Source of the DNA: Candidatus Omnitrophota bacterium
GTDB lineage: Bacteria; Omnitrophota; Gorgyraeia; Zapsychrales; Fredricksoniimonadaceae
NCBI GenBank assembly: GCA_015234065.1
Contig: JADFWS010000007.1
Coordinates: forward strand, 1-34,251
DNA length: 34,251 nucleotides
Direction of reading: 5' to 3'
The position numbers and the translations under genes are program-made. This document shows positions 1-22,034 of this stretch, in pieces (position 1 is the first letter of the stretch; every line of letters begins with the position of its first letter). Below the pieces are notes generated by a model. The model searched no databases. It saw only the letters and a list, made by a program, of their open reading frames with translations, and was not told the DNA's origin.

Positions 1-3000
1 ACATCTGAACAATTGCCTCAACCGGAGGCTGATCGGATATTTTATGCGGCAGTGGGATCTGATGCGGATGCCAAAGAAGTGCCGAATTTTGTGGTGAAGA
101 ACCTTCGCCAATATGTGACGTTTGACGGATTTAAAGGCCGCGGGTACAAGGAATTCGGCTGGGCTTTTGAATTCATGCGTGCGTTGACGGACAGCGACCC
201 CGGCCTTGACCGTATCCTTATCCGCAAAGGGTTGTTGCGGTCTCTGGCGCAGGGGGTCACCTATATTGAAGTGACGGTGAATGATATTCGCGGATTAAAG
301 TTTGCCGTGCTTGGTGCTGAAGATGCGGCCAGGGAATCAAAGGGCCGTTTGCAGGTCGCGGTCCTCTACGGCCAGCGCCGCGATCAGATGTATCGCGTGT
401 GGGCCAGGCCTGTTGAGGAACAGGCGGCTGAAATGGCCCGGTATGAACATATGACTCTTGCGGCACTCATTGAGGATATCCGTAAGAAAGTGGTTGTCGA
501 AGATGCGCATTGCTTCGGGATCATGCCCGAGAAAAGCCATGCCGAGTTTAATACGGCTTTAGAGGAAATGCGCTGGTTATGTGATGCGTCCCGGTGGAAG
601 TCCGGCCTGTTGCCTGCTGAGCAGTTACGCCGCCTCTTGATCGAGGCTTTGGCCGCGCGCACGCTTGCGTTGGATGAGATCAAACATTTTCAGCGGGTCT
701 GTGAAGAGCTCAAGCATGAAAACCTGGTCGCAGCCCGGCGCATCGTGGGGATCTCGTTCGTGGGCAATGACAAATATACTTTTCCCTGGCTGTATGCGCC
801 GGCGATCCGTTATGCGCAGAAGAAAATAAAAATGAAGACCACGATACACGCCGGGAAATCCTGGCGGCCGGGGATGTATTTACGGGTCTTACACCATGTG
901 GATCAGGACCTTGCGCTTGGGCCGAATCGTGTTGAGCATTTGTGCGTCCTTGAGCCGGACCCGTCTGATCCGAACGTGCTGATCGAAGAGGGGCTGACGG
1001 ATAGCCAGCGTCAGGAAGCCGCGGATCTTCGCCGGAAAATACTCCAAACGCTTTTTAACAGGAAGATCCCGGTCTCGGTGGCGTTTTCAAGTCAGCGGCT
1101 GGGAGACCCCGCCAGCATGGACCGCACGCTTCGGCTGATCAACTTCTTTGCGCGGGCATTTATATTAAAAAGCGAGCTGGAGAAACATTTTCCGGGTGCG
1201 TTCAACCTGTTGCAGGCAAAAGGCTATCTGGAAGTTTTTCCTGACGAGAAGACGGCGATATCCGGCGGGGCCAAGGGGCTTCTTTCGGGCGATATGAGCG
1301 CGCTGGAGAATGATCGCGTGCTGGCCTTGGCATTGAAGGAACGTTTTTCAGACCTGGTTGTGTTCCTTAAACAGGCGCCGGGTATTGACGTCTCGTTTAA
1401 CATGCCGAATCCCGCGGTCGAAGGGGTTGCGCTGGCCGATGATATCGCGGAAGCTGTGCTGCGCCTGCCGCATATGCCGTTTGCCCGGTGGCGCAATATG
1501 GTTGACGACGGAGATACGCGGTGTTTTCACCGGACAGTTGAGGTTTTGATCGAGCGCCTGCTTGAAGAGATGGAGAAGGTCTATGAGCGCACTTTCGGGC
1601 TTTGGCATGATATTTGTGTTTTTGGCAGTGCGCGTACCGGCCGGGGGCATCCGCTGAAAGTGTTTGAAATGGGCGAGGCCCTGGGTGTATGGATCATGCG
1701 CCTGGGCGAAACGATCGTGACAGGCGGCGGCCCGGCGGGTATGGAAGGCCCGCTCGTGGGGTATATCAAGGAGCGTAGTCGTCACGGAGCGCAGGTCACA
1801 ATGGCAACCATGACCCGTGTGGTGCGCATTGCGTTGAATTTTTTTGAGCCGCTGAATGTGTATGCGGAAAAGGTTTGGGAGTTCAATCATTTTATGTTCC
1901 GCAAGGAAGCTTTGTTCCGTTTTGCCAAGGGCGTGATCGCGCTTCCCGGCGGGTTTGGCACCATGGAGGAGATCCTCGAAGCGGTTGTCCGTGGGCATCG
2001 GGTGCAATGCCTTGGCGATTTTTGGAAGCCGGTCATGCAGGCGTTCGACCGGTACTGGCAGAAGGCGGGTTTACCGGACCGTGTTATGAGCAAGCTTGAT
2101 TTTACAGCCTGGGCTGAAGATACATGGAATAAAGAACCGCCGCAGGCGTTGTTGAATATTATTAAAAATCCTTTGAAGCCCGCGCAGGTGACAGAAACTG
2201 AAAGACAGGAACGCCGCCGCGTGATCCGCGAAGGTATCCGCATGTTCGAGGCTTTGCATGAGCCTATTGTTTTTGGCGGTGATGCCGGAACAGATGCCCA
2301 GTGGCAGGCGATGGCAGAGACCATGCGTGAAACAGTGGCGCGCGGGATCCCGGTTCGGGTCATCAGCCGCGGCAGGGCTTTTGAGCTGGCGTGGCAGATC
2401 GTTGTGGAGGAGGCCAACAGGCCGGACCTGTTCCAGGCGGTCTTGTGGTCAGGCACGCATAAAGCGCCATGGGAGAATAATGAAACATATGCGCTGGCTT
2501 GTTTTGAAGAGCAGGTCTTGTTCACCACGGATTATACGATGGAGCGTTTTCTGGGCAATTATCGTTCGCTGCGCATGGTCCTGACGCCCGGCGGTGAGGC
2601 GCTGACGCTTCTGATGGCGGATATGATGGTCGTGGTCCAGACCAAGAAAGTGGCCCAGCGTCCTATTGTGCTGATCGATGATGAAGGCGGCGCGGCTGAT
2701 GAGCTGTTCGCAGCGCTGGAATCCGTGTTCGAGCCCGCCGGAACGATTACCAAAGGCGATCTTAATATTGTCCGCCGCCTTAAGACCGGTTCTGGGATCA
2801 TTCAATATTTATTTCCGGCTTCATCTCATAAATCTCCGGGCATGATGATTCCTTTTCGGGCATGGTTTCATTGGGTCAAGAGCGATATTCTTAAAGAGAA
2901 AATTGCCTGTGCCTGGTGCCCGTCTGTGGAAAACTTTTTGATCCGTCAGTGCCGCATGCCACAATGGCTTTTTATGCTGTTACATTTCCCGGGCGATCGT

Positions 3001-6000
3001 GAAGCGGCGCGCGACGTGTTCAACGTTGTGCGTAACGCTTCCACCAATGCCGCGGCACATACGGCTCACGGCGTATTTAATAGGGACACACTATTTTGCG
3101 CAAACAATCCGAACAAACCGAACAATAATAGTGTGTCCCTATTATTCCTGGGTGCCGCGGCGGTTGTTACGACGGTATGCGCAGCTGCCGGCCTGATGAT
3201 GTATCCGCACGCACTGGATCATGTTCCTTCGTTATATGTGATGTTCGCCTGTTACGGCTTGGGCACTGTTATTGGATGGATCACGGCGATGATCGATAAA
3301 AAGCCGCTTGGCTGGTGGCTGATGGTGAAGGGCCTTGTGCTGGATACGCTTGTTATCGGCTGGACGAATACTCTCTGGTATGACTATGTGTTCCCGTTAT
3401 ATGGACGGGTTTTGCCGGGCAGCGGTTTTGGCCATCAGGTATTTATTAATTTTCTGCATTCCTTCGGCTCGGCATTCCCGTTCTTTATTGTGTACCTTTT
3501 TTGTTCGTTGTTATGGACGGCGCGGTTCAAAGGCAACTGGTTTGCATATTTGAAAACAGCGCATACGATGTATTTTTCAACAGCCACCGTTGGGTTGATC
3601 TATTGGGCGTTTGTTATTTTGGGCGCTATGCGTCTGAACCTGCCCATGACCAATATTAATGCGGTGGCGACCGTGCCGTACGCGATCGGGCTTATCTGGT
3701 GGGGGAACGGCGGGTACGCGTCGCCGTTGGCGCAATGGCTGCCGCGGTTGCCCTGGTCAAACGCCCAGTGGGCCGGAATTTATTTAGGGGTCGTGGCCGG
3801 GTTCTGGGGCGGCATCGTGGGGCTGGGGCTTTTCAGCGCCACACCGTGCACATTCCTTATGGCGTGCGCTCTTGCAGGTTATGGGCTGAAAAGTTTCGGG
3901 AGCACGCAACACAATACGAGGTCTTCGTGTTCTGGGCCCGTCAACCCGGAGCTGCCGATCCCTGTCGAGGCATTCCAAAAGAGCGCGCTGGTGTTGCGCA
4001 CGATTGCGGGCAGGGCGGATGTTTTTAACGATTTTGCCGAGCGCCTGATCTGGGTTGTTGCTGATCCTGCAGAGCGTCCGTTTGAAGCACGCTGGAAGGC
4101 GCGCCACAGCCTGGTAGGCGACGCGATGACATATCTTCTGTTATGGATCGACATGGTTTTGGCCACACCGGCGAGCCTGGATGCCTGCATTCAACGGTCA
4201 ACGGTTGGCGGCGGGCAGGCGTACTCAGGCCGTATTTCCGGGCAAATCGAGGCGTTTGCGACATCATTGAGTGCGCTTGAATTCGCGGCACGAAAAAGAA
4301 CTCCGGCAGAGAAAGCGCATTTGGCGCAATATAAAGGCACGCAAGAAAACCCGGTGCCGGCTGTAGACCTGGGGTCTTTTATTGATGAAACGGTTATTGC
4401 CGTAGATGCCGAACGTAAGGAGAAATTTGACAGGGCCTTAAAGGATATTCGACAAGAGTGGACGAATGTCGAAACACTTTTTAATGACGAGATCCTGCCG
4501 TATATCCGCGCGCGCGAACAAGCATTGACCGATCATTCTAAGGATACGCTATGTCAGACGAATAACCCGAACAATCCGAATAGAAATAGTGTGTCCCGAT
4601 TATTGTTGTTGTGCCTCACCGGGATGGCGGCCCTGCATTTCGGCGTACCGCACGCTTCGGCCGCGACGGAATTTCTGGCTGTGAGCGGTGCCGCCGGCCG
4701 CGCGTCGCCGCTATTGGGGATACCTGTGTCGTTGGCATTGCCCGCTTTGTTTACAACCCTTCTTGGAATGTGCTCATCGTTATTCAAGTCCCGCCGGCCC
4801 GGAACAACCTATGAAGAGGGTGGTGTGACCTGGGAAGTATGTGACCCCAAAGATATGGTCTTTGAGCAAAGAAATAAAAGGATAAATATCACGTCGAAAG
4901 TGACCTATAAAGGCGATCCGCGCTGGGTGAAGCAGGCGCTTGTGCTGGAGTCTCTTGATGAGGCAAAAACCATTGTCCCGATGGCAGCCCTCTATCAAAA
5001 GATCGGCCGGCTGGGTTTTCAGGGCTTGAACACCGCCGAGGCTTTCCTGGATGTGCGTGGCGCTAAAACTATTGTGATGACGACATTGCCGCCTGGCAAG
5101 CCGCTGAAGGACCCGTTTTTTCGAGGCATCACAACGGCCGGGAAGGTCGATATTATTCTTCAGGTGGCGCGAGCGCTCAAAGTTTTTCATGATCATGTCG
5201 GGGTCCATGCGGATGTGCACCCGTTGAATGTCTGGGTTACGGATCAAGGCCGGGTTATTCTTTTTGATTATGATGTGGCGTTCAGCACGTCGGATGAGTT
5301 TATGGCACGTAAACTGATGGCGGCATGTTTTGACCCTGATTTTTCCTCGCGCAAGCGTCGCATGATCTGGCGCGATCAGTTGGAGCCTGAGTGGATCAAG
5401 CGCCCGGCATGGTCAACGATCACGGTCACGAAAGATATGGTTTTTGGCCCGGAAGAAGATGTGTATGCCCTGAGCACCATGTTGTTGTATCTCTTGTTCG
5501 GCCAGGATGGGCTGCAAGAATATAATTCCCGGGGTTTTAATGATTTTGAAAAGTTCTTTGTGCGTGATGGCCCGGTCAACGTGGAGCCCGAAATGATGGA
5601 TTTTCTCCGTCGGGCTTTAGTGGACGATCCCCAAAAAGGTTTTCAGGCCGCGGAGGCATTCATTGCGGCGCTGGAAAGAGTCAGAGCCGCGTTGCGGGGC
5701 CCCGCGAAGCGTGTCGAATTGACTGCGGATGTTTTCAGAAAAACGAACGTATCGATGGCCGGTATCTTTTTGGAAGCGGAGATCCCGGCGCGCCAACAAT
5801 TTCTGCAGAGCCTCGGTGCGGATATTCTTTTGGCATTTTCGATCTGGCATGTGATCCAGGCGAATGCGCCGCCGCTTGATGTGGAATCATATGCCTGTAC
5901 ATCGATCAGCACCATGGTTGTCTCTTTCAAAGGCAAGATCAGTTTTGACCGGCATCCAGCATTTCAGTATCTTTCCCCACGTGCGGCACGCTACATAGAA

Positions 6001-9000
6001 TTTTTTGAGACAAGATGTAGTTCTAATGAGGATATAGAGCGGGCTTTCCGTGATTTTCTCAATGATATCTTTCGTGTTCGTCGCCGCCTGGAAGCGCAGT
6101 TCAGTTTTATAAGGGAATTCAACGATCTTCGCCCTGAAGGCCAACGGATCCGGCATTTTAACGGGCTGGTTTTTGAGCAGAAGATTTTGGAGCTTTTGGG
6201 GTTTGAAGGTGAAGGCCGTGACTTGGTTCATGTGAGCGCGCGCAAGGCGCTGAAGGATGCCGTCTCGGCGGCACAATTGAATACGATGGATCAGGATAAC
6301 CGGATCCGCGGCATTTCCGGCGAGGTGACCGGGCTTGATGAGCTGGCGATCAAGTTTGGGCAGGTTATGCAGTCGACCCGGGCCGGCGTTCTCGACGGGA
6401 CGAACAGGTTTGTTCCGTTAAAAGCGGTTAATAAAGTTAAAGAATTCGACCAGGTTGCGGTTACGACCGAGAACGGGAAGCGGCGGCTCATCGTCCAGGA
6501 ATGTAAATTTTCCGGCGGATATTTTAAGCTTCTTCAGCAGGTCATTGGCGGCCTTGTTTCGTTAAAGACATACCGGGAAAAGTTATCGCATCTTGAGCTT
6601 GTGAACAGCCATCCGGATTACAGGGGGCGTGTGGCCGAGTATCGGCATATTCTGGAGCATGAGATCAATGGCGGTGTTCTTAGCCTCGGGATTGCGGCGT
6701 ATTTGCACAGGCATTCCGAGTTGGCATCGCGCCTGCATGTGACGGACAAAGGGTTTTCGTTTCGAGTTCCGTTATCAGAATTCCACTCATTTTTCTTTTC
6801 ACCGCGGCAACGTCCGTTTATTCTGGCCGACCCTGCGGTACGCGGCGCGCATATTGATTGGGCCAGGACAGAAGTAAAAGTTAAAAGCATCATTGATGAG
6901 AGCCTGAAGGCCGGTTGCGGTAACGAGGAGATGGTGATCACGGTCAGTAATGCTGACCCTGAAGGGCTGAAATTATTACAGGCCATTGCTGAAGAGTATG
7001 CGCTTGCGCACGCGATCTCATTTGAGGGCTGGCTGCAGGACCGTGTGCGGCTGGCCGCGATTGACACAGTGATCATTGATTTTGACGGGTCGGTCATCGG
7101 GATCGATGAGGCGCTTCTTGATTCGCTCATGGCCAATAGGATCGAAGCGTTGTTGTCGTCGGGCGTGCATGTGATCATTGTGACCGGGCGTTCCCGCGAT
7201 TCTTTCTTATCGCATCTTGGGAAAGGTGTTGCGCTGCGTTTCAGCCAACAAAGAGGCCGCTGTTATTTGGTTACGAATACCGGCGCGGCCTGGTATGAAT
7301 TAATGAATGGAGAGGCCCGGCTGCGCAAGCAGGCGCCCGGGACAGAGGATCTGTCCGGGGATATTGGCCGTGTGTTGACAGAAATATTCCGGCGTTCAGT
7401 GCATGAAGTGTTTGATCATGTCGGCCTGGCTGAAAATATGCCTGGCCAAAAGATTTCTTTGAACGCGCCGTACGATCTTTTTCTTTCCCTCAAGGAAGAA
7501 AGCCAGCGGCGCTGGTGCCATATGATCGCGGACCGTGTTAATCGGCACATTGAACCGCTAAAAAAAGCAGGACTTTTGCCTTCGGAATCCCGGGCGTTAA
7601 TATCGTCGGAGACCGTATATATTGCATTGCATGAGAAAGCCGGATTTTTACCTGCGGTTCTGAGGGAACTTCAAGGCCAGCGTGTGGTGTTCTTGGGCGA
7701 TTCCATGGGAACCGCGTATTATCCCGGCAATGACCGCAGTGTGTTTACGCTTTCCGCCGCTAGTATTCAACAGCTTGGCCTCGAGCGTTTTGACAGAATT
7801 TATGTTGGCCATGAGCGGATGCTGGAGATCCCCGAGGGCATTATTCGTGCCAGTGCGGCGAAAGGTGAAAAAATATGGGCTCCGGCGAGGCGCATGATGG
7901 CTGCGATTGTGCAGGCAAAGAAGGGTGCGTTCTTGTCTGAGGCGTCATTGAAGGTCCCGCCGGGCATGCCGGCTTGTCCGTTATGGGTGGGTGGCTTGGT
8001 GGCAGGGCATCTCGGGATGCAGATATTTTCCGAAGAAAAATGGTTCTTCACCGGCATCATCGCCGTTGTTTGGTCCGCGTGCCATATCGGTGCATATATT
8101 TATGACAGAAAGGACGAGCTTTGGCAAAGTGTTGCGCGCGCGGGCCGAGGGCTGTGTCAGAATGCGGTTAGATTGTTTGCGCTCGTGCTTTTCTTTTTGG
8201 AAAGAATGAGCACACTTTTTGCCATTGAGGCTCCGTGGCTCATTCGTTCTTCGCTCGGGCTGCTCGGCATTTTTATCGGAATATCTGTGGTCAGTTTTTA
8301 TTTTGCACCGGGGCTTTTGCTCGCTTCGGCAAAGCTCGGCGTTGCCATTGCTGTGTTTATGGTATATGCCGGCAGCGCGGTATTCCTCGATGGCAGGGCT
8401 CGCCGTTTGGGCGTGGCTCCGGCAATGCTGGCGTTGACGGCGAGTGGCATCATTTATGGATTTCTGGATTTGCCGTGGCACGCGGCCGTGTGGTTTAAGT
8501 ACGGTATTCTTCCGGAAATGCTGATGTACGCGGTTGCGGTCTTTGCGGCGAATATGCTCCGCCTGATGGCGGTTGCCGGAAAAGGCGCGCACGGGCTTGC
8601 GTGGCCCCGTGAAATGAAAAGAGCGTCCTGGTGGCGCGCGATGTTGTTTGGCCGCCTGCTTCGCTGGGCGATGGCAGGAGCCGCGTCGGGAAGCTTTATG
8701 TACGCGTATTTGACGTTCTTAAATGACCGCTGGTCTTTATCGTTCAGCAACATGATCGTGGGGGCGCTGGTCAAGACCGCGTTTGATCAGGGCATCATGA
8801 CATTCTTTGTGATCTTTCCGATGCTTGTTGCGGTTGTTGAGCTGATCGGACAGCGGGAAAGCCTTCGATATGTTTTTATTGGGAAGACAGGGCTGGCGTC
8901 GAGAGCCAATATATTCGGGGTCTTCCGGCAGAATATATATGCGCGTTACAAGGGGCTTCTGGGGTTTGATGTTTTTTACTGGTCTGTTATCCTGTTCGTA

Positions 9001-10845
9001 TCCTGGTCAGTCAATGCATGCATTGCCGGCGCGTCCAATGCGTTTGTGGCCATGGTCATTGAATCTATTTTTACCATGCCCGCGATCTTTTATTGGTATG
9101 TTCATTTGAATAAGAGCTACGTTTTTCAGAGCCGTGTTCGCGTTAATGAACATAATTGGCCAGGGCTTGCGAAAAATATGGTCCGCCACATTCAACGCAG
9201 GATCATGACGGATTGCGTTATGATCGCGGATTCTGAGGCAACGGCCATGCAGCTGGCGGTTTTTTTGAATAAGCATGCCGGTATCCGCGCGGCGTTCGCT
9301 GTTGATGAAAACAGCGTCAGCCTGGCGCGCGAACAGCATCATGCGAATATCCTTATCCTTGTCCGGCACAACCGGGCATGGCCGCAGTGTGTCAAGCAAT
9401 GGCGGAGCACGCCGTCAGGCAATGCCGACGCGAGGCGCGGGAAGTTGCAGGCTTTTCTGCCGGATAGTAAAACCGATCAGCCGCGTGCGTATGACATGCC
9501 TGTGCCGCCGGAGGTCCAGCAGAATATTGAAACACGCGATGGCGTCAAGCGGCTTTGCTGGTCTGCGCCGGTGCAGGGGTTGCGGCTCCTGGATCAGAAA
9601 AACCAGCCTATGGCGTATGAAGCCCGGAGTGTTCAGCGGGCATTGTATCTGCTGGGGGCTGTTTATGGCCGGGCGTCACCCAGGCCAAAATGCTGGACTG
9701 TGCGCGTTACCACGTCGCTGGAGCAGACCAGGGGGTGTGTGGCCGCGTGCCGCATCAAGGAACGTGTCGTGTCGCTTTCCCCGTATTTCTTTACGTTGCC
9801 GTTGTTGCTCCAGGCTAGGATCCTGTATCACGAACTGATCAGCCATATGGCCAAGGATCTGCGCCTCGAATCTTCCGCCAAGGCCGATACAGATACATTC
9901 TGGCAAACAAAAATGCTGGACCATCCCGGTATCCGTGGAGTTGTGCTGGATGACCTTCTTACAAAAACCGCGAATATTGATTGGAGCCCGGACCATTTAA
10001 CCGGGGCATTCCAGAAAGTCCAATTTGGGAGGTATCTGACGGCGCAATATGCGGTCAAATACCTGGAGTATGATGAGTGTTCCCTGTCGGCGCTGGATAA
10101 CGTGGAACATCAGGCCAATGATGTGGATACGCTGCTGCAGCTGCATTCCCAGGGGCAGATCCCGTCGCTGGCTCTGCCGCTGGCGGCCTGCCGGGAGGGA
10201 TTCACGATGTATTCCATTCAGCCAAATTATGGAAATTATAAAATTGTTGATCCGCGCCGGCCGTTTGACCCGGCGCGTGTGACGGAACTGGCCCGGCGTA
10301 TGGCCGAAGCAGTACAGCAACTGCATTCCCGTCACATGCTCCATCGGGATATCAAGCCGGATAATTTTATTGTGGATGTTGATCCGGCAACGGGAAAAAT
10401 CCTGAGCGTGGTTTTGTGTGACCTGGGGTTTGCTGTTCCTGCTGGAACTATTACGGAAACGACGGGCGCGCAGAGATATATGTGGCCGCAAGACTGGAAA
10501 GAAAGAAATGCCCGCGTCCGTCAGGATGAGCGCGCGGATCTTTATGCGCTTGGCTTGACGATCTGTGAAATGAGTACCGGGGCCGCGTTCAATATCCGTC
10601 AGTATCGCACGCGGATGCGGGCGTTAGGCCCGTCGGCGGCACCGTTACTGGACGTTATAGAACATTGCATCAATGTCAAGCGGCAGAAAGGCCCGGCGTA
10701 TACACGCGTATCCCAGGCTGTTGCCGCCCTCAAGCGGGCCGCCCGAGCTCAAAAAAATGCGGATAAAAAGGCGCGGGCGCAATTTGATTTTGACGAGCTT
10801 CATGCCAGGGCGGCCAAATTCAAGCCGGGCTGGCTATTACGCTGA
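1..10845 (+). CDS. Giant multidomain protein, 5'-truncated by the window edge (ADA-like / LOG-like x2 / TM / kinase-like / PD-(D/E)XK-like / HAD-like / TM / HExxH / Ser-Thr kinase)
   Basis: Frame 1 is open from base 1 (aca tct gaa caa ttg...) to the stop at 10843-10845; the listed TTG at 13 is probably not the true start. Motifs: PGGFGTMEE (LOG), HADVHPLN...DYD (kinase-like), DFDGS...VTGRS...GDS (HAD), HELISH (HExxH), HRDIKPDN...DLG (kinase). Confidence 0.85.
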   Translation, partial: TSEQLPQPEADRIFYAAVGSDADAKEVPNFVVKNLRQYVTFDGFKGRGYKEFGWAFEFMRALTDSDPGLDRILIRKGLLRSLAQGVTYIEVTVNDIRGLKFAVLGAEDAARESKGRLQVAVLYGQRRDQMYRVWARPVEEQAAEMARYEHMTLAALIEDIRKKVVVEDAHCFGIMPEKSHAEFNTALEEMRWLCDASRWKSGLLPAEQLRRLLIEALAARTLALDEIKHFQRVCEELKHENLVAARRIVGISFVGNDKYTFPWLYAPAIRYAQKKIKMKTTIHAGKSWRPGMYLRVLHHVDQDLALGPNRVEHLCVLEPDPSDPNVLIEEGLTDSQRQEAADLRRKILQTLFNRKIPVSVAFSSQRLGDPASMDRTLRLINFFARAFILKSELEKHFPGAFNLLQAKGYLEVFPDEKTAISGGAKGLLSGDMSALENDRVLALALKERFSDLVVFLKQAPGIDVSFNMPNPAVEGVALADDIAEAVLRLPHMPFARWRNMVDDGDTRCFHRTVEVLIERLLEEMEKVYERTFGLWHDICVFGSARTGRGHPLKVFEMGEALGVWIMRLGETIVTGGGPAGMEGPLVGYIKERSRHGAQVTMATMTRVVRIALNFFEPLNVYAEKVWEFNHFMFRKEALFRFAKGVIALPGGFGTMEEILEAVVRGHRVQCLGDFWKPVMQAFDRYWQKAGLPDRVMSKLDFTAWAEDTWNKEPPQALLNIIKNPLKPAQVTETERQERRRVIREGIRMFEALHEPIVFGGDAGTDAQWQAMAETMRETVARGIPVRVISRGRAFELAWQIVVEEANRPDLFQAVLWSGTHKAPWENNETYALACFEEQVLFTTDYTMERFLGNYRSLRMVLTPGGEALTLLMADMMVVVQTKKVAQRPIVLIDDEGGAADELFAALESVFEPAGTITKGDLNIVRRLKTGSGIIQYLFPASSHKSPGMMIPFRAWFHWVKSDILKEKIACAWCPSVENFLIRQCRMPQWLFMLLHFPGDREAARDVFNVVRNASTNAAAHTAHGVFNRDTLFCANNPNKPNNNSVSLLFLGAAAVVTTVCAAAGLMMYPHALDHVPSLYVMFACYGLGTVIGWITAMIDKKPLGWWLMVKGLVLDTLVIGWTNTLWYDYVFPLYGRVLPGSGFGHQVFINFLHSFGSAFPFFIVYLFCSLLWTARFKGNWFAYLKTAHTMYFSTATVGLIYWAFVILGAMRLNLPMTNINAVATVPYAIGLIWWGNGGYASPLAQWLPRLPWSNAQWAGIYLGVVAGFWGGIVGLGLFSATPCTFLMACALAGYGLKSFGSTQHNTRSSCSGPVNPELPIPVEAFQKSALVLRTIAGRADVFNDFAERLIWVVADPAERPFEARWKARHSLVGDAMTYLLLWIDMVLATPASLDACIQRSTVGGGQAYSGRISGQIEAFATSLSALEFAARKRTPAEKAHLAQYKGTQENPVPAVDLGSFIDETVIAVDAERKEKFDRALKDIRQEWTNVETLFNDEILPYIRAREQALTDHSKDTLCQTNNPNNPNRNSVSRLLLLCLTGMAALHFGVPHASAATEFLAVSGAAGRASPLLGIPVSLALPALFTTLLGMCSSLFKSRRPGTTYEEGGVTWEVCDPKDMVFEQRNKRINITSKVTYKGDPRWVKQALVLESLDEAKTIVPMAALYQKIGRLGFQGLNTAEAFLDVRGAKTIVMTTLPPGKPLKDPFFRGITTAGKVDIILQVARALKVFHDHVGVHADVHPLNVWVTDQGRVILFDYDVAFSTSDEFMARKLMAACFDPDFSSRKRRMIWRDQLEPEWIKRPAWSTITVTKDMVFGPEEDVYALSTMLLYLLFGQDGLQEYNSRGFNDFEKFFVRDGPVNVEPEMMDFLRRALVDDPQKGFQAAEAFIAALERVRAALRGPAKRVELTADVFRKTNVSMAGIFLEAEIPARQQFLQSLGADILLAFSIWHVIQANAPPLDVESYACTSISTMVVSFKGKISFDRHPAFQYLSPRAARYIEFFETRCSSNEDIERAFRDFLNDIFRVRRRLEAQFSFIREFNDLRPEGQRIRHFNGLVFEQKILELLGFEGEGRDLVHVSARKALKDAVSAAQLNTMDQDNRIRGISGEVTGLDELAIKFGQVMQSTRAGVLDGTNRFVPLKAVNKVKEFDQVAVTTENGKRRLIVQECKFSGGYFKLLQQVIGGLVSLKTYREKLSHLELVNSHPDYRGRVAEYRHILEHEINGGVLSLGIAAYLHRHSELASRLHVTDKGFSFRVPLSEFHSFFFSPRQRPFILADPAVRGAHIDWARTEVKVKSIIDESLKAGCGNEEMVITVSNADPEGLKLLQAIAEEYALAHAISFEGWLQDRVRLAAIDTVIIDFDGSVIGIDEALLDSLMANRIEALLSSGVHVIIVTGRSRDSFLSHLGKGVALRFSQQRGRCYLVTNTGAAWYELMNGEARLRKQAPGTEDLSGDIGRVLTEIFRRSVHEVFDHVGLAENMPGQKISLNAPYDLFLSLKEESQRRWCHMIADRVNRHIEPLKKAGLLPSESRALISSETVYIALHEKAGFLPAVLRELQGQRVVFLGDSMGTAYYPGNDRSVFTLSAASIQQLGLERFDRIYVGHERMLEIPEGIIRASAAKGEKIWAPARRMMAAIVQAKKGAFLSEASLKVPPGMPACPLWVGGLVAGHLGMQIFSEEKWFFTGIIAVVWSACHIGAYIYDRKDELWQSVARAGRGLCQNAVRLFALVLFFLERMSTLFAIEAPWLIRSSLGLLGIFIGISVVSFYFAPGLLLASAKLGVAIAVFMVYAGSAVFLDGRARRLGVAPAMLALTASGIIYGFLDLPWHAAVWFKYGILPEMLMYAVAVFAANMLRLMAVAGKGAHGLAWPREMKRASWWRAMLFGRLLRWAMAGAASGSFMYAYLTFLNDRWSLSFSNMIVGALVKTAFDQGIMTFFVIFPMLVAVVELIGQRESLRYVFIGKTGLASRANIFGVFRQNIYARYKGLLGFDVFYWSVILFVSWSVNACIAGASNAFVAMVIESIFTMPAIFYWYVHLNKSYVFQSRVRVNEHNWPGLAKNMVRHIQRRIMTDCVMIADSEATAMQLAVFLNKHAGIRAAFAVDENSVSLAREQHHANILILVRHNRAWPQCVKQWRSTPSGNADARRGKLQAFLPDSKTDQPRAYDMPVPPEVQQNIETRDGVKRLCWSAPVQGLRLLDQKNQPMAYEARSVQRALYLLGAVYGRASPRPKCWTVRVTTSLEQTRGCVAACRIKERVVSLSPYFFTLPLLLQARILYHELISHMAKDLRLESSAKADTDTFWQTKMLDHPGIRGVVLDDLLTKTANIDWSPDHLTGAFQKVQFGRYLTAQYAVKYLEYDECSLSALDNVEHQANDVDTLLQLHSQGQIPSLALPLAACREGFTMYSIQPNYGNYKIVDPRRPFDPARVTELARRMAEAVQQLHSRHMLHRDIKPDNFIVDVDPATGKILSVVLCDLGFAVPAGTITETTGAQRYMWPQDWKERNARVRQDERADLYALGLTICEMSTGAAFNIRQYRTRMRALGPSAAPLLDVIEHCINVKRQKGPAYTRVSQAVAALKRAARAQKNADKKARAQFDFDELHARAAKFKPGWLLR
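3078..3144 (+). repeat. Palindromic element, family A copy 1 (inside the giant ORF)
   Basis: Perfect 18-bp arms taatagggacacactatt (3078-3095) and aatagtgtgtccctatta (3127-3144) around a 31-nt loop containing caatccgaacaaaccgaac. Confidence 0.9.
4537..4602 (+). repeat. Palindromic element, family A copy 2 (inside the giant ORF; left arm degenerate)
   Basis: ctaaggatacgctatgtcagacgaataacccgaacaatccgaatagaaatagtgtgtcccgatta aligns with copy 1 in the same orientation and reading frame (NRDTLFCANNPNKPNNNSVSLL vs SKDTLCQTNNPNNPNRNSVSRL). Confidence 0.75.
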
Positions 10846-12371: not shown

Positions 12372-12731
12372 ATGGAGAGTATTAAAGTGGATACACACGT
12401 TCCAAACGACAACAGGCTTTTTGAGCGTTTTCCTGCTCGCTTTCCGGCCAGGTTTCATGATACGGACAGCGCTTATGGGGCCGATGTGCTTTTACGCGAC
12501 GCGTCGGGCTCGGGCCTGCGTATTGCCACCCGCCAGAAACTTCTTCTGGATGACCGCCTGTCCCTGGAGGTCGAGCTTCCCGACGGGAAAGATGCGGTCG
12601 TTTTAAGCGGCCGCGTGCGCTGGATCCACAATACCTCGCCGCAGCTCGCCGAAGCCGGGATCGAGCTTCACAAGGTGTCTTTTATGCGCATGCACCGGCT
12701 TGTCAAGTATTCCATCGAAACCGCCGCATAA
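12372..12731 (+). CDS. PilZ domain protein (second, tandem)
   Basis: RLFERFPARFPARF...VLLRDASGSGLRIATRQKLLLDDRLSLEVELPDG...LSGRVRWIHN...AGIELHKVS. Confidence 0.7.
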   Translation: MESIKVDTHVPNDNRLFERFPARFPARFHDTDSAYGADVLLRDASGSGLRIATRQKLLLDDRLSLEVELPDGKDAVVLSGRVRWIHNTSPQLAEAGIELHKVSFMRMHRLVKYSIETAA

Positions 12732-12737
12732 TTTCGC

Positions 12738-12766
12738 TTGTCATTTATTTTTTCCTACGTTAGAAT
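12738..12766 (+). promoter_or_regulatory. Putative promoter for the GH94-type gene
   Basis: TTGTCA (12738-12743), N17, TAGAAT (12761-12766); ATG at 12778. Confidence 0.45.
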
Positions 12767-12777
12767 ATCGCTCCGTT

Positions 12778-15495
12778 ATGTCTTCCGAGAAAAAATTCTA
12801 TTCATTTCTTTCCGACGGCGTTTCGTTCCGTTCTACGGATGCGGCATGGTCGCGCCTTATTTACGCGCCGCTGTGCGGCCCCGACGGGAACAGCATCAAA
12901 TCTGCCATTACGCCGCTTTTGTCCGGTGATATTAAATTGGATAAAGGGAAATATATTACGCGTCCCGCGTCCCGCGAGGACCTGCGCCAGCCTGTTCGCA
13001 ATTTCTTCATGTCGGTTGAGGGCCGGGGTGTGGCCGGTATCGGGGATGCTGCGGACGCATCTGTATCTGTCGAGATCGGGCAGCTGTGGCATAAGCAGGT
13101 GCGTTCATTTCCAGCCCTGGGCCTGGCCACGGAAACGCTTACGTTTGTTCCGGTATCCGCAGAAACGCTCGAGCTTACGCGGGTGACGGTTAAAAACATT
13201 TCAGATCAGGTGGTGGCTTTTACGCCGACGGCGGCGATCCCGATCTTCGGCCGTGCGCTCGCGAACAAGCATGATCATGAGCACGTGACCGCGTTATTGC
13301 ACCGGATCGACGTGTGTGCCGACGGCGTTTGCGTCACGCCGACCATGCTGTTCAATGAAGAGGGCCACAAGCAGGGAAAGAATACATATTATGTTTTCGG
13401 TGCCGACGGCGAGGGCGCCGCGCCGCAGGGGGCGTTCCCCACGATCGAAGCATGTTGCGGCGAGAGCGGTACGCTTGACCGGCCCGAGGCGGTCATGCAG
13501 AACCTGCCGTTGCGCAAGCTGAGCGAGCCCGAACTTCAGGGCCGGGAAGCGATGGGCGCGCTGCGTTTTGCCAGGGTGTCTTTAAAGCCCGGCGCAGTCA
13601 AGGAATTTATTATCGCGGCCGGTATCGGCGCGTCGTGCGATGACGGGGTTGCGGCGTTCACGCGGTTTAAGACCAGCGCCGCGTTCGATAAGGCGCTGGA
13701 GGCTAATAAAACATTTTGGGCCGGAAAAACATCGTCGATCCTGTTTGAGGACGGAGACCCTGATTTTGACGCGTGGATGCGCTGGGTCACGCTTCAGCCG
13801 GTCCTGCGCCGTATTTTCGGGTGCTCGTTTCTGCCGGATCATGATTACGGCAAAGGCGGTAAAGGCTGGCGCGATATCTGGCAGGACCTCTTGTCGCTTA
13901 TCCTGATTGAACCGGAGTCGGTGCGCGATCAGTTGCTGAATAATTTTGCCGGCATTCGTATCGATGGCTCGAATGCCACGATCATCGGGCAAAAGCCGGG
14001 TGAATTCATGGCGGATCGCAATGCGATCACGCGCGTCTGGATGGATCATGGGGCCTGGCCTTTTTTGACCACACTTTTATATATCAATCAATCCGGGGAT
14101 ACGGACCTTCTTTTTGAAAAGGCGCCGTATTTTGCGGATCTTCAGGCTTCGCGCACCTTTGAAAAGAATACGGCCTGGACACCGGCGTACGGCAGTCAGC
14201 TGAAAGGCCGCAAAGACGGCGTCTATTACGGCACGGTGCTGGAGCATATTCTGGTCCAGAATCTGGTCCCGTTCTTTAATGTGGGCGAGCACAACATTAC
14301 TCGTTTGGAGAGTGCGGATTGGAACGACGGCCTGGATATGGCTTTCAAACGCGGCGAGAGCGTGGCCTTCATGTCGTTTTATGCCGGGAACCTGTTGTCG
14401 ATCGCGGAATTGCTCGAGATCACGGCCCAGGCGCGTAATCTTAAGACGATCACCGTGGCGGCGGAGCTTAAGCTTTTGTTCGATACGCTGTCGTCCCCTG
14501 TGAATTATGACAATATCGCGGAAAAGAAATTCCGCTTGTTCGACGAATATTTTAAAGCGGTCCAGCCCGAGCTTTCGGGCGATACGTGTGAGCTGGATAT
14601 TGCGGCGGTGGTATCCGACCTGCGTGCCAAAGGCGCGTGGATGTCCGCGCATATCCGCAAGCAGGAAAAAGTTTCCGTGCCGGCTGATGCCGGCGCCTTC
14701 ACCTGGTTCAATGGATATTATGATAATCAGGGCGAGCGCGTGGAAGGGTTTAAGGCCGGCCGTGTATGGATGACGTTAACAGGCCAGGTATTTCCGGTCA
14801 TGCACGGCATTGCCAATGCGGAAGATACGCACGAGATCATTAAGTCGGTCCGAAAGTTTCTGAAAGACAAAGACCTGGGTGGTTTTCGGTTGAACACGGA
14901 TTTCGGCGTAAAAACGCATCTGGCGCTCGGACGGGCGTTCGGTTTTGCATTTGGCACAAAAGAGAATGGTGCGGTTTTTTCACATATGGCGGTCATGTAC
15001 GGCTATGCGCTGTATAAGCAGGGTTTTGCCCGCGAAGGGTTTGAGGTGCTGCGCTCGCTGTACGATATGAGCATGGCGCCGGGCAAAGCGTTCATTTATC
15101 CGGGTGTTCCGGAATATTTTGATGGGACCGGCCGAGGCATGTATCATTTTCTTACCGGCTCGGCCAGCTGGTATGTCCTGACATTGCTCACACAGGCGTA
15201 TGGCGTGCGCGGCGAAGGCGGGGATCTTATCCTGTCTCCAAAACTCGTGGCCGAGGAATTTTCCGCGTCAGGTGAGGCCGCGGTCACCTGCCAGTTCGCG
15301 GGCAAGGCGGTGCGGGTCGTGTACGTGAATCCTAAAAAGAAAGATGCCGGCGCCTATCGCATTGAGGCTGTTCAGCTGAACGGCTGTGACGCGGATGTGG
15401 TGCCCCATGCACCGGCTGAAGTGAGATTATCGCGCGCGCTTCTGGCAGCCGCACTGGCTCCTGCCGAGATCAAAGTATTTTTGACAAATATGTAA
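12778..15495 (+). CDS. Glycoside phosphorylase-like protein (GH94 / related GH-Q clan, cellobiose/beta-glucan phosphorylase type)
   Basis: KGWRDIWQDLLSL, DHGAWPF, SADWNDGLD and GSASWYVL are hallmark-like motifs of GH94-type phosphorylases; start at MSSEKKF rather than the upstream Met overlapping the PilZ gene. Confidence 0.75.
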   Translation: MSSEKKFYSFLSDGVSFRSTDAAWSRLIYAPLCGPDGNSIKSAITPLLSGDIKLDKGKYITRPASREDLRQPVRNFFMSVEGRGVAGIGDAADASVSVEIGQLWHKQVRSFPALGLATETLTFVPVSAETLELTRVTVKNISDQVVAFTPTAAIPIFGRALANKHDHEHVTALLHRIDVCADGVCVTPTMLFNEEGHKQGKNTYYVFGADGEGAAPQGAFPTIEACCGESGTLDRPEAVMQNLPLRKLSEPELQGREAMGALRFARVSLKPGAVKEFIIAAGIGASCDDGVAAFTRFKTSAAFDKALEANKTFWAGKTSSILFEDGDPDFDAWMRWVTLQPVLRRIFGCSFLPDHDYGKGGKGWRDIWQDLLSLILIEPESVRDQLLNNFAGIRIDGSNATIIGQKPGEFMADRNAITRVWMDHGAWPFLTTLLYINQSGDTDLLFEKAPYFADLQASRTFEKNTAWTPAYGSQLKGRKDGVYYGTVLEHILVQNLVPFFNVGEHNITRLESADWNDGLDMAFKRGESVAFMSFYAGNLLSIAELLEITAQARNLKTITVAAELKLLFDTLSSPVNYDNIAEKKFRLFDEYFKAVQPELSGDTCELDIAAVVSDLRAKGAWMSAHIRKQEKVSVPADAGAFTWFNGYYDNQGERVEGFKAGRVWMTLTGQVFPVMHGIANAEDTHEIIKSVRKFLKDKDLGGFRLNTDFGVKTHLALGRAFGFAFGTKENGAVFSHMAVMYGYALYKQGFAREGFEVLRSLYDMSMAPGKAFIYPGVPEYFDGTGRGMYHFLTGSASWYVLTLLTQAYGVRGEGGDLILSPKLVAEEFSASGEAAVTCQFAGKAVRVVYVNPKKKDAGAYRIEAVQLNGCDADVVPHAPAEVRLSRALLAAALAPAEIKVFLTNM

Positions 15496-15509
15496 CAGAA
15501 TGTTAAAAT
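15481..15509 (+). promoter_or_regulatory. Strong putative sigma70 promoter for the ABC transporter operon
   Basis: TTGACA (15481-15486), N17, TAAAAT (15504-15509), overlapping the 3' end of the upstream gene. Confidence 0.6.
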
Positions 15510-15557
15510 ACGACCTTCTTTTAAAAGGTATTTTTACTTTATTTAATTCCGTCGGAG

Positions 15558-16868
15558 ATGGGGCGGCACATGACCTTCAGGATGAAAATGTTATTGCCTG
15601 TGATATGCGGCCTTATGCTGCTGGCGGTATCCGGGTGCGGTAGCCCTGTCAAGCCGGTTGATCAGATCGAAGTCTGGCACTGGATGACCGATCGCCATGA
15701 CGTGCTCGAGCAGCTTGCCAAACAGTACGAGCAGGAAACCGGCATCAAGGTCAAGCTTGAACTCTTTGCCCCTTCGGATGCGTATACTCAAAAGATCATT
15801 GCGGCCGCCCAGGCCAATGTCCTTCCCGATATTTACGGGATCCTCGACAAAAAATCTATTGTAGCGGCATTTATTAAGGCCGGTTTTGTCATGGACCTGA
15901 CGCCTGCGTACCAGGCGAATAACGGGGCATGGGAGCAGTCGCTGTTTGCCAAGGCGCTGGAGACAACCCGTTTTGCCGAGGGCAATGCCAGCAAGGTCCC
16001 GCCCGGGTTTTATGGTGTGCCGATCGATACCAGCAGTATTCAGATGGTGTATAACAAAAACCTGCTGAAAAAAGCCGGGATCGCCAAACCGCCGGCGACA
16101 TTCGATGAATTCATTCTGGATATTGAGGCCCTGCGCCGCGTGGGCGTTACGCCATTCGTATCCGGTTTCGGTGAAATGTGGCTGCTTGATTGTTTTGCGT
16201 CGAATTATGCGTTTAACATCATGGGCGAGCAGAAAGTCATGCAGACGCTGCGCGGAGAGGTGCCGTACACAGACCCCGACTGGATCAAGGTATTGACGAT
16301 CTTTAAGACACTGCGCGATAAAAAGGCTTTTATCGAGGGCATTGTGACCAAGGGCAACAAATATTCCGAGCAGGACTTTGCGCTTGAGCGTGCGGCATTC
16401 TCGTTTAACGGGTGGTGGTGTGTGAATGTGTATAAGGGGATGAACCCCGGGTTATCGTACGGCGTGGTCCCGCTGCCGGCCATGGCATCGCCGTTTCCCC
16501 TCAAAAGCTGGGGAGGCGCTGGTTCCTGGTTTGTGGTGAATAACACGTCAAGAAATAAAGACAAGGCTGTTCGGTTTCTCCAGTGGTTGACGGCTAAAGA
16601 ACAGCAGGTCTTTTTATCTGAAAAAACATTAAACCTTCCGGCTAATCGTGAGGCGATCAGGATGATCCCCCCGGTGCTGGGAGATTTTGCAAAAGCCATG
16701 GATAATATGACCCATCCGACGATCTGGCCGGTCAATGAGGATCCACTGGTGATCGAGGCGTTTGACAAGGGGCTCCAGGCGATCATTATCGGCGAAAAGT
16801 CGCCGGAGAGCGTGGCCCAGGATGTCCAGGCTGTCAAGGCGCGGCAAATGGCAAAAGCAAAGAAATAA
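15558..16868 (+). CDS. Sugar ABC transporter substrate-binding lipoprotein
   Basis: Lipobox LLAVSGC; EVWHWMTDRHDVLEQLAKQYEQETGIKVKLE and FSFNGWWCVNVYK...GGAGSWFVVNNTSRNKDKAVRFLQWL match carbohydrate uptake family 1 SBPs. Confidence 0.9.
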   Translation: MGRHMTFRMKMLLPVICGLMLLAVSGCGSPVKPVDQIEVWHWMTDRHDVLEQLAKQYEQETGIKVKLELFAPSDAYTQKIIAAAQANVLPDIYGILDKKSIVAAFIKAGFVMDLTPAYQANNGAWEQSLFAKALETTRFAEGNASKVPPGFYGVPIDTSSIQMVYNKNLLKKAGIAKPPATFDEFILDIEALRRVGVTPFVSGFGEMWLLDCFASNYAFNIMGEQKVMQTLRGEVPYTDPDWIKVLTIFKTLRDKKAFIEGIVTKGNKYSEQDFALERAAFSFNGWWCVNVYKGMNPGLSYGVVPLPAMASPFPLKSWGGAGSWFVVNNTSRNKDKAVRFLQWLTAKEQQVFLSEKTLNLPANREAIRMIPPVLGDFAKAMDNMTHPTIWPVNEDPLVIEAFDKGLQAIIIGEKSPESVAQDVQAVKARQMAKAKK

Positions 16869-16880
16869 GAAAGTCGCGGC

Positions 16881-17804
16881 ATGGGTGCTCACGCACAGAT
16901 CAGGGCTCTGAAGATCCCGAACGCAGATATATATAAAAATTTTTTGTTCGTGCTACCTGCGGTCGTTATTTTTTTGCTGTTTTATATTTATCCGTTCTTT
17001 CAATTATTTTATGTGTCGCTGCATGAGTGGCCGGGCATTGGCCCCATGACGTTTGTGGGCCTCCAGAATTTTAAGGACTTGGCCGGCGATCAAATCTGGT
17101 GGGCGTCCATCGGGCACGCGGGGTATATTACACTCATTGCGCTGACGTTTCAGAATGCGCTGGCGTTCGCGCTGGCCCTGGCGTGCGATCGCGAGATCCG
17201 CATGAAGCGTTTTTATCGGGTGATCTTTTTCATTCCGCCGGTGTTGTCGGAAGTGGTTGTCGGCATCCTCTGGAATTGGGTGCTGAATGCCGGCCAGCAA
17301 AATGGCCAGCAGATCGGGCTGCTCAATGCGTTTCTTGTTCAGGCTGGTTTGCCGAATCTTGTTCATGGCTGGCTTTCTGATCCGAAAACAGCGCTGACGT
17401 GCATTGCGGTCGTGCATGCCTGGAAAGGTTTTGGCTGGGGTTTTATGCTGCTGCTCGCGGGCCTGCAGACCATTGACCGCCAGCTCTACGAAGCGGCCAG
17501 GGTAGACGGGGCCAGTAGCTGGAGAATGTTCTGGAATGTGACCGTGCCAATGATGTTCCCGGTGATCACGGTGGTCATGATCCTGACGATTTTGGGGTCC
17601 ATGCAGGTGTTTGTCCTTATTTTGTCGCTGGTGAATCAGGGCCTTGTGTATCATACGGAAGTTCCGGTGACGCGCATTCTGGGGGCCATGTCCGGGACAA
17701 ATCAGTTCGGTTATGCCTGCGCACAGGCGGTTATTTTCGGTGCTATATTGCTCACGGTTTCATTTTTGGTAAAGAAGTTGTCGGGGTTTGGAAAACAGGC
17801 ATGA
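16881..17804 (+). CDS. Sugar ABC transporter permease (MalF/UgpA-like)
   Basis: Multi-TM protein with EAARVDGASSWRMFWNVTVPMMFPVI (EAA loop). Confidence 0.9.
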   Translation: MGAHAQIRALKIPNADIYKNFLFVLPAVVIFLLFYIYPFFQLFYVSLHEWPGIGPMTFVGLQNFKDLAGDQIWWASIGHAGYITLIALTFQNALAFALALACDREIRMKRFYRVIFFIPPVLSEVVVGILWNWVLNAGQQNGQQIGLLNAFLVQAGLPNLVHGWLSDPKTALTCIAVVHAWKGFGWGFMLLLAGLQTIDRQLYEAARVDGASSWRMFWNVTVPMMFPVITVVMILTILGSMQVFVLILSLVNQGLVYHTEVPVTRILGAMSGTNQFGYACAQAVIFGAILLTVSFLVKKLSGFGKQA

Positions 17805-18652
17805 ATATATTCAACAGCAGATATGTTTTAGAACGCGTTGCCAAAAATACGGCCGTTCATATTTTTTTAATGGCAGCCGCCGCGGCGTGCCTGTTGCCGC
17901 TGTTCTGGATGATCCGCTCGTCGCTTATGTCGAACGCAACGATCTTTACGGATCAGGCGCTGTTCCCGCATGAGTTTAATGCCGGGAATTACGCGACGGC
18001 CTGGGTCCGGGGGAACTTCAGCGTGTATTTTTTGAACAGCGTGCTTTACACCGTGAGTGTTGTCGCCGGGATCGTCATGATCGCATCGCTGGCGGCGTTT
18101 GCGTTCTCGCGCCTGCGCTTTCCGGGCAGGGATGTTCTTTTTTATATGTTTGTGGCGGCGATGATGATCCCGCTTCCGGGATCTTTTGTGCCGTTGTTTG
18201 TCATGATGAGTAAACTGCATCTGACGAACAGCCCGCTCGGGTATATCCTGTGCATGATCAACGTGGGTTTGCCGCTGAGCATCTTATTATTGAAAACATT
18301 CTTTGATAAAATGCCGCAGGACCTTGAAGATGCCGCGCGTATTGACGGATGCAGCCGGGTCCAGATCTTGTGGCATGTGGCATTACCGCTGGCCCGTCCG
18401 GCAATCGCGGTGATCGTGATGTACAACACGCTGAATGTCTGGAATGAGTTTATTCTGGCGAATTTGTTGCTCAATGATAAAAGTCTTATGCCGCTGCAAA
18501 CAGGCCTCATGGCTTTTGCCGGCACGCATCAGGTGGATTATCCGGTCCTGATGGCGGGTCTGACGATTACTGCGATCCCGGTCGTGGCGGTGTATGTTTT
18601 CATGCAAAAGCATATTGTTAAAGAGCTTTGGACGGGGGTGCTCGTTGGTTAA
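17801..18652 (+). CDS. Sugar ABC transporter permease (MalG/UgpE-like)
   Basis: EDAARIDGCSRVQILWHVALPLARPAI (EAA loop); start overlaps the preceding stop by 4 bp. Confidence 0.9.
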   Translation: MNIFNSRYVLERVAKNTAVHIFLMAAAAACLLPLFWMIRSSLMSNATIFTDQALFPHEFNAGNYATAWVRGNFSVYFLNSVLYTVSVVAGIVMIASLAAFAFSRLRFPGRDVLFYMFVAAMMIPLPGSFVPLFVMMSKLHLTNSPLGYILCMINVGLPLSILLLKTFFDKMPQDLEDAARIDGCSRVQILWHVALPLARPAIAVIVMYNTLNVWNEFILANLLLNDKSLMPLQTGLMAFAGTHQVDYPVLMAGLTITAIPVVAVYVFMQKHIVKELWTGVLVG

Positions 18653-18656
18653 TTCG

Positions 18657-21002: not shown

Positions 21003-21017
21003 ATTGGCAAATCGCGC

Positions 21018-21036
21018 GAAAGTATGGCATACTTTC
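21018..21036. promoter_or_regulatory. Perfect 19-bp palindrome (operator or short hairpin)
   Basis: gaaagtatg g catactttc: 9-bp arms, 1-nt centre, between the GH stop (21002) and the next gene (21090). Confidence 0.5.
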
Positions 21037-21089
21037 CCGTACATGCGACGTAAAATAAGGGTGTTTAAAAAATAACAGGAGGAGTAGAT

Positions 21090-22022
21090 ATGAAGAAGGT
21101 CGTGATCGTGAGTGTATTTGTTGCGTTTTTAGCGGTGGCGGGCGGCTTCGCGCGCGCAGAAGAAGCGGCGATACCCGTTGTCCCGTCGGGCGCGGCGCCG
21201 GTCGTTGTGCCTGCGGCGCAGGCCAAGGCGGCATATAATTTCGGAGACCATCGTTCCTCGACGCTGACGACGAAGGCGTGGGGCGCTCTGGCCATGAAAG
21301 ACCTGGACGGCGTTTTGGCGTATACCGGCAAGTGCCTGGAATTGTATGCGGCCGAAGCGGCCAAGATGCAGGCAGGGCTCAAGGAATTTCCGGCAGGCGA
21401 TGACCAGAAGATCTTTTCGTTCTGGGCGTTAAATGATGTGGCGACATCTGTTTATATTCAGGGTGAGGCGTATAATCGCGCCGGGGATAAGGAAAAAGCC
21501 AAAGCGGCGTTTGAACGTGTTACTAAAGAATTCTCGTTTGGCCAGGCATGGGATCCGTCGAAGAAGCTGTTCTGGAAGCCGTCCGTGGCGGCCAAAGACA
21601 AGCTGGATATGATGGCCAAGGGGATCGATCTTGATTTCAGCGATATGTCTTCCGCCGGGATCGTAAAGAAGGCGTGGGAAGCATCTGCGGCCAAGAATGT
21701 CGCGGCTGTTGAGGCGTATGTGGCCAAGAACCTCGAACTGTACGGGGCCAAGGCCAAGGAAATGCAGGCGGGCCTGACGGAATATCCGTGGGAATCTCCT
21801 GAAAAGATCCATTCGTTTTGGGCGCTGAATGATATTGGCACGTCACTGTTCGTCCTGGGTGATACGTACCGCCAGGCCGGCCAGAATGGCAAGGCTAAAG
21901 AAACGTTCCAGAAGCTTGTGAACGAATATTTCTACGCGCAGTGCTGGGACCCGCAGGGCTGGTTCTGGAAGCCGGCGGAAGCGGCACAGCAGAAACTGGT
22001 CGAGCTTGAAGCGGCCAAGTAA
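21090..22022 (+). CDS. Exported protein with two tandem TPR-like repeats
   Basis: Signal peptide MKKVVIVSVFVAFLAVAGGFARA; SD aggagg; two ~115-aa homologous modules (KAWGALAMKDLDG...WDPSKKLFWKP and KAWEASAAKNVAA...WDPQGWFWKP). Confidence 0.8.
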   Translation: MKKVVIVSVFVAFLAVAGGFARAEEAAIPVVPSGAAPVVVPAAQAKAAYNFGDHRSSTLTTKAWGALAMKDLDGVLAYTGKCLELYAAEAAKMQAGLKEFPAGDDQKIFSFWALNDVATSVYIQGEAYNRAGDKEKAKAAFERVTKEFSFGQAWDPSKKLFWKPSVAAKDKLDMMAKGIDLDFSDMSSAGIVKKAWEASAAKNVAAVEAYVAKNLELYGAKAKEMQAGLTEYPWESPEKIHSFWALNDIGTSLFVLGDTYRQAGQNGKAKETFQKLVNEYFYAQCWDPQGWFWKPAEAAQQKLVELEAAK

Positions 22023-22034
22023 TTGAAAGTATCC

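Follow-up and report, generated by a model that had tools for sequence, protein, structure and literature searches.

An open reading frame at a contig edge is very probably the C-terminal end of a giant multi-module protein gene of an Omnitrophota bacterium

Main finding

We analysed a 34,251-nucleotide stretch of DNA (the window) and conclude from sequence comparison that the open reading frame (ORF) at its left edge very probably encodes the C-terminal end of a giant protein from an Omnitrophota bacterium. The best explanation overall, to which we give roughly even credence, is that it would encode the end of a giant polyenzyme, Tad-linked and threaded through the membrane, for attachment or predation. 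The comparisons show a giant family whose predicted products start with a C39 peptidase head, whose genes lie downstream of a TadB/TadC-like pair and whose bodies are mosaics of putative membrane bundles and enzyme modules; in the giants of the window ORF's family, a predicted LOG-LOG unit, often ADA-LOG-LOG, is found towards the C-terminus. Because giant Omnitrophota ORFs have already been published, the window ORF is not a new kind. An earlier preliminary description could name no matching architecture and proposed an undescribed system, a proposal that gives way here to the tail of a giant-ORF kind already described; by its predicted module content, this tail differs from the known giant Omnitrophota ORFs.

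An open frame cut by the contig edge

The window is contig C154:1–34251 of a fragmented genome, G000 (1.75 Mb, 176 contigs, 85.7% complete). A single open frame (frame +1, 3,614 codons) runs along its plus strand from position 1 to a stop ending at 10845, in agreement with the uninterrupted frame of more than 3,600 codons in the preliminary description, and its codon-phase composition is even throughout, with GC2 lowest and GC3 high, the same as in the adjoining genes. The 5' end is open; because the frame reaches the contig edge in a fragmented assembly, the gene start lies off the contig and only the last 3,614 residues are visible. Residues 5–759, the ADA-LOG part, share 52% identity with the C-terminus of a 20,296-residue frame of the nearest relative, the sister genome G005 of the same family. 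That frame is longer than 60.8 kb, compared with the 10.8 kb left by the contig edge here, and itself leaves its contig. Identity to the nearest relative at codon positions 1, 2 and 3 is 58/67/39% over residues 1–500 and 70/72/46% over residues 500–760; since it peaks at position 2 and is lowest at position 3, conservation acts at the protein level. Even codon phase and coding-type conservation rule out a chance ORF or frame artefact, and an assembly fusion peculiar to C154 is ruled out by relatives in other assemblies that carry the same modules in long frames. Ordinary chromosomal genes lie 3' of the giant ORF, including a CvpA-like gene, PilZ, a GH94-type enzyme, a sugar ABC transporter, a LacI regulator, MnmG and thiazole synthesis genes.

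It is very improbable that separate genes were merged here by stop-codon decay, repeat insertion or assembly error, with no single polypeptide being made. Two in-frame palindromic repeats at module boundaries would suit such a merger, as would the gap and broken frame seen where ADA lies in one relative (G032). However, independent assemblies hold the same modules in long frames and not as the separate genes that the preliminary description had allowed for, two of the giants (G005 and G010) are collinear over their length, the codon phase of the window frame is uniform with coding-type conservation, and a complete single-contig genome (G108) contains a frame of 39,687 codons.

Giant relatives

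A first contig scan with residues 1–700 as query found no relative. The ADA-LOG module was found, whole or in part, in long frames of G032 (5,134 residues), G029 (3,749 residues) and G053 (7,841 residues), and also in G004 (2,169 residues) and G010, where the frame is complete at 35,884 residues. The giants of G005 and G010 share six matching blocks from the N-terminal head to ADA, and because the order of the blocks agrees throughout, the two genes appear to be true orthologues in which a conserved backbone carries variable insertions. The window's other modules recur in differing orders in giants throughout the class, in frames of up to 70,450 residues. Of the domain order for which the preliminary description proposed a search, the ADA-LOG(-LOG) unit is shared, the module order past LOG2 is not conserved among the relatives compared, and module content differs greatly between genera.

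The giant of G005 contains UPRTase, guanylate kinase, NUDIX, 2H phosphodiesterase and M28 domains, as well as HAD, PEP-utilising, sugar transferase, HATPase and metallophosphatase domains; PPDK, hexokinase, VTC, a full sigma-70 and M48 are contributed by the giants of other relatives. With 29–73 hydrophobic segments and many enzyme domains, the relatives' giant ORFs fit the giant membrane-associated polyenzyme of the preliminary description, apart from its nucleotide-sensing role (see below). On the minus strand of L043 (G026:C20), a 5,044-residue frame with both ends open combines a complete sigma-70 (regions 1.2–4), HAD and VTC, a polyphosphate polymerase domain, in one polypeptide. In the giant frame of L047/L048 (G032:C239), PPDK, eukaryote-type hexokinase domains and a histidine phosphatase follow ADA-LOG-LOG, and N-runs and a frame break occur where ADA starts. 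The open frames of 70,450 (G270:C2), 57,756 (G412:C2) and 44,856 residues (G035:C3) are among the largest predicted coding frames.

A common head beside Tad genes

The N-termini of the G005 and G010 giants are homologous and consist of a C39-type cysteine peptidase preceded by a conserved signal or anchor segment; in the peptidase, Cys and His are invariant and Asp is almost invariant in an alignment from 29 genomes. A full copy of this head was found in 33 of 55 relatives, essentially one per genome. Scanning the phylum gave 35 genomes of the order with one strong copy, and weaker copies begin giants elsewhere in the class. Among the 40 head loci in named genomes, 38 are titled Omnitrophota, Omnitrophica or genera thereof, and the other two bear the labels Elusimicrobia and "bacterium". 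G005 and G010, both of the window genome's family, bear the head, and Zapsychrus and Aceula are among the named relatives. The genome titled Elusimicrobia (G002, JAAYZZ010000124.1) has a giant head and is placed in the window genome's family, and its title is probably a mislabel. The head, backbone and pre-ADA pieces of the giant were not found in the fragmented G000 assembly.

With the upstream genes of G010, G005 and G108 as seeds, we scanned 30 head loci. A T2SSF (TadB/TadC-type) gene lies upstream on the same strand in 28 of them and a tandem TadB/TadC-like pair precedes the head gene in 26, with two conserved larger frames commonly further upstream. By our own estimate, a same-strand tandem T2SSF pair within 10 kb would be rare by chance in a 2-Mb genome, at a few per cent. 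G005 is an exception, having an F-type conjugation set (TraC, TraU, TrbI) together with a secretin, T2SSE and T2SSF upstream. At that locus (L039, 1–16255 of G005:C79), where the usual Tad pair is replaced, a tail-collar pilin is also among the genes directly upstream of the giant. The search for Tad adjacency in G000 led to TadB/TadC genes at the end of contig C36, where TadC is followed by an unrelated membrane-protein frame, inside which the contig ends 424 bases past TadC.

Velamenicoccus archaeovorus and other known systems

The genome G108 consists of one 1,974,201-base contig, on which a 39,687-codon frame starts at 29823, right after TadB/TadC-like genes at 27778–29579. In the published Velamenicoccus archaeovorus LiM genome, the giant ORF has 39,678 aa and the Tad locus spans 12382–29832 (PMC10066038). 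Because the giant frame and Tad position match these values closely, G108 is almost certainly Ca. Velamenicoccus archaeovorus LiM. Its giant contains the head plus a LOG-LOG unit at residues 33,912–34,371, LOG1 being intact and LOG2 degenerate, and residues 538–892 of the window frame match residues 33969–34309 over this unit (E 5e-27). The window tail thus resembles the V. archaeovorus giant in phylum, in a LOG-LOG unit near the C-terminus and in its many membrane segments, and the relatives' giants share its N-terminal head, the V. archaeovorus gene lying directly after TadB/TadC. In contrast, BLASTP did not find the window's arrangement of ADA, kinase, PD-(D/E)XK, HAD, RpiB and HExxH modules there, and the window piece has neither its own head nor its Tad neighbour on the contig.

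Peptides of the V. archaeovorus giant are three-fold up in attached cells, and formation of a coat has been proposed (PMC10066038); open cytoplasmic contact between the predator and its prey has been reported (PMC13153191). The predation-type giant protein of the preliminary description fits both the Tad-type locus beside the head gene and the homology to a giant that is up in attached cells (PMC10066038). As summarised in PMC12057145, West-Roberts et al. (2023) describe Omnitrophota giant genes of 30,000–85,804 aa. To the extent of that summary, the window tail is like those giants in being an Omnitrophota frame with many membrane segments and a predation-related reading, and it would be set apart by being built of nucleotide/sugar-enzyme, kinase, nuclease and protease modules, not glycan-degrading ones.

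MARTX-type proteins are multi-effector toxins with an internal processing protease. By analogy, the giant family may resemble them in having an export-linked chain, an embedded cysteine peptidase and several enzyme modules; unlike them it has interspersed membrane bundles, and its processing is putative.

The ADA-LOG-LOG unit

All modules, membrane regions and palindromic repeat copies given with window coordinates below are on the plus strand. The ADA-like module (1–1500, residues 1–500) was compared in an alignment of 5–7 relatives. Adenosine deaminase (PF00962) is characterised by a catalytic HAGE and a metal-binding Asp (NxDDP), which the window module lacks: HAGE has become HAGK and NPDD has become NPNP, replacing the catalytic Glu by Lys and the Asp pair by Asn-Pro. 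The same loss is found in the sister G005, and both HxGE and NPDD are kept in the modules of G032, G004 and G010. Among the relatives, G032 alone reaches Pfam A_deaminase, at 3.4e-6, slightly short of the cut-off, and a PDB search with the module gave no match. ADA is therefore the weakest domain assignment, based on one relative's sub-cut-off Pfam score, motif conservation and position, and the window module is probably a pseudo-enzyme.

LOG1 (1609–2235; Lysine_decarbox/LOG, Pfam PF03641, 8.7e-11, and alignment) retains FRK and PGGFGTMEE, corresponding to the R-K and PGGxGTxxE of LOG phosphoribohydrolases (PF03641). LOG2 (2248–2790), recognised by alignment, is degenerate, with TPGGEALTLL in the position of PGGxGTxxE, so that the motif is lost (PGGEALTLL). 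The tandem is also present in G108, and G032 and G029 have two LOG stretches each. LOG1 has the motif of stand-alone LOG (lysine decarboxylase family) proteins; unlike them it is diverged, in tandem with a degenerate LOG2 and inside a giant frame. Small stand-alone LOG frames of ~220–250 aa were found in nearly all relatives as well. Of the calls in the preliminary description, LOG1 is firm, LOG2 holds but is degenerate, and ADA is weak with its catalytic residues lost. The proposal of nucleotide sensing gains little support, the ADA-like module being without its catalytic Glu and Asp, LOG2 being degenerate and the LOG motif being kept in LOG1 only.

A structural role would suit the ADA-like domain and LOG2 too, as both seem to be catalytically inactive. 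The giant might form an extracellular coat or adhesive layer, its enzyme folds being mostly exapted, inert building blocks, a structural reading that we consider unlikely. It would agree with the coat proposed for V. archaeovorus (PMC10066038), with the missing catalytic residues of ADA and LOG2 in the window and with the very numerous hydrophobic segments of the relatives. It accords poorly with the kinases, HAD, PD-(D/E)XK, HExxH, LOG1 and the C39 head, all of which retain active-site residues in divergent relatives.

Kinase, nuclease, phosphatase and peptidase modules

Beyond LOG2, the calls of kinase-like, nuclease-like, HAD-like, HExxH and C-terminal kinase modules were each backed by relatives, profiles or predicted folds, so that most modules of the preliminary description gained support; its list was right in kind, missed an RpiB-like domain and included one ADA and one LOG that look dead. 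Kinase-like module 1 (4813–5700; HADVHPLN ... DYD) has HWDxKPxN..DFD in relatives, and Foldseek matched it to PknB (probability 1.00) and a profile search to PknA (4e-6). The PD-(D/E)XK nuclease-like module (6100–7002) has E81, D117, E134xK136 and Q147 invariant among 9 relatives, its D117 and E134xK136 supplying the superfamily core D ... (E/D)xK; profile searches of Pfam and PDB returned no family for it. The HAD-like phosphatase module (7033–7920; DFDG ... GDSxGTxxxPGNDR), which has backing from relatives and from profile and fold searches, matches phosphomannomutase and IMP-nucleotidase folds, and its relative in G026 gives a Pfam Hydrolase_3 match.

The RpiB-like Rossmannoid domain (9118–9435) reaches Pfam PF02502 at 1.4e-6, and Foldseek assigns it to RpiB with probability 0.99–1.00, yet with E of only 0.05–0.1. 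In the HExxH metallopeptidase-like module that follows (9451–9909; HELISH, with an E as third-ligand candidate), H144, E145 and E157 are invariant and H149 almost so across 11 aligned modules. Most of the module is predicted by AF2 at pLDDT 90–97, and the AlphaFold model of the C-terminal tile, poor beyond the HExxH region, has a mean pLDDT of 55.8; profile searches gave no Pfam or PDB family for this module. The Ser/Thr protein kinase module 2 at the C-terminus (10018–10785; HRDIKPDN ... DLG; Pfam PF00069, 4.2e-21) has the HRDxxxxN and DFG-like motifs of PF00069 and matches PADLOC kinase models at 1.5e-25. Membership of a defence system was ruled out, as the PADLOC matches are to generic kinase domains only. 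In the giants of other families, active-site residues are likewise retained by the kinases, HAD, PD-(D/E)XK and HExxH modules.

Membrane regions and one-sided modules

The preliminary description had counted two membrane regions, and hydropathy reveals a third: region 1 has ~8 hydrophobic segments (3139–3858, residues 1047–1286), region 2 has two (4591–4764, residues 1531–1588) and region 3 has ~10 (8041–9099, residues 2681–3033). In this topology, derived from hydropathy alone, the regions are roughly even-numbered (8, 2, ~10), and all enzyme modules could therefore be on one side of the membrane, which would speak for an enzyme array anchored in the membrane more than for a coat that is freely secreted.

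The same even numbering would suit a membrane-anchored metabolic or signalling polyenzyme working in the producing cell, with the producer's own nucleotides and sugars, and not prey, as targets. Housekeeping-like UPRTase, guanylate kinase, NUDIX, PPDK, hexokinase, VTC and a full sigma-70 in the relatives' giants are consistent with such a role. We nevertheless regard it as rather unlikely, because in the head a peptidase comes after an export-type signal, the gene is within a Tad locus, the V. archaeovorus giant is more abundant in attached cells (PMC10066038) and module content varies greatly between genera, unlike that of metabolism.

A model for the giants

For the preferred reading, a giant polyenzyme for attachment or predation, we can offer a mechanism that is tentative. 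The chain, tied to the Tad machine, would be threaded through or delivered across a membrane and cut by its own embedded proteases (the C39 head and HExxH modules), and its kinase, LOG, nuclease and phosphatase modules would become exposed to a cytoplasm containing ATP and nucleotides. The most likely occasion would be when the bacterium attaches to a prey cell or opens it, with the modules acting at the contact.

A more specific version, which we hold to be doubtful, is that the giants may form a family that is defined by its head, encoded at Tad loci and essentially single-copy. Its members would be secretion-coupled multi-effector polyproteins with no described counterpart, whose modules would be released or presented in prey. 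One export signal and one C39 peptidase would then lead a string of 10,000–50,000 residues of interchangeable, still catalytic modules, among them kinases, LOG, nucleases, phosphatases, metalloproteases and even a sigma factor. In the papers searched, which covered West-Roberts et al. (2023) through PMC12057145, no report of the common head, its single-copy behaviour, the Tad linkage or the LOG-LOG module came up.

PMC10066038 treats the function of Omnitrophota giant genes as an open question and notes "few annotated domains" as well as "poor conservation". The conserved head, Tad neighbourhood, collinear backbone and shared LOG-LOG module provide a handle on these genes: the head can serve to define the family, which can be located beside TadB/C in many genomes and whose modules can be expressed and assayed singly. 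If our reading is true, some of the largest predicted bacterial proteins share an operon-like context with an attachment or secretion machine.

Interspersed repeats

A palindromic DNA repeat (AATAGGGACACACTATT...) is interspersed at ~14 genomic sites in G000, and its in-frame copies adjoin membrane segments. Copy 1 (3079–3146; fold z = -5.1) is in frame at the boundary between LOG2 and the membrane region, the diverged copy 2 (4537–4604), identified by repeat comparison, is in frame at another module boundary, and copy 3 (28664–28728), identified in the same way, is outside the giant ORF. The copies at 3079–3146 and 4537–4604, both overlooked in the preliminary description, indicate that the gene tolerates insertions at those module boundaries. 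We do not claim selection of the repeat's frame, because 4 of the 6 frames of copy 1 are open. The peptide motif NNPN..NSVS, which is seen twice, was considered as a protein linker or sorting signal and rejected, since it is the translation of the palindromic repeat copies. Between TadC and the giant head of another locus (L151, 7668–8195), we noted by eye a REP-associated Y1 transposase-like frame, which suggests a possible origin of such palindromic repeats.

Elsewhere in the window, an AbiEii/NTP_transf_5-like nucleotidyltransferase (28722–29294) adjoins a palindromic repeat copy. A 1,084-aa frame without a Pfam match (25415–28669) contains a tandem in-frame 42-nt repeat (GGGGATCCTTCGGCTTCGCCTCAGGATGAC...), which is found also at positions 22744 and 32073 of the window.
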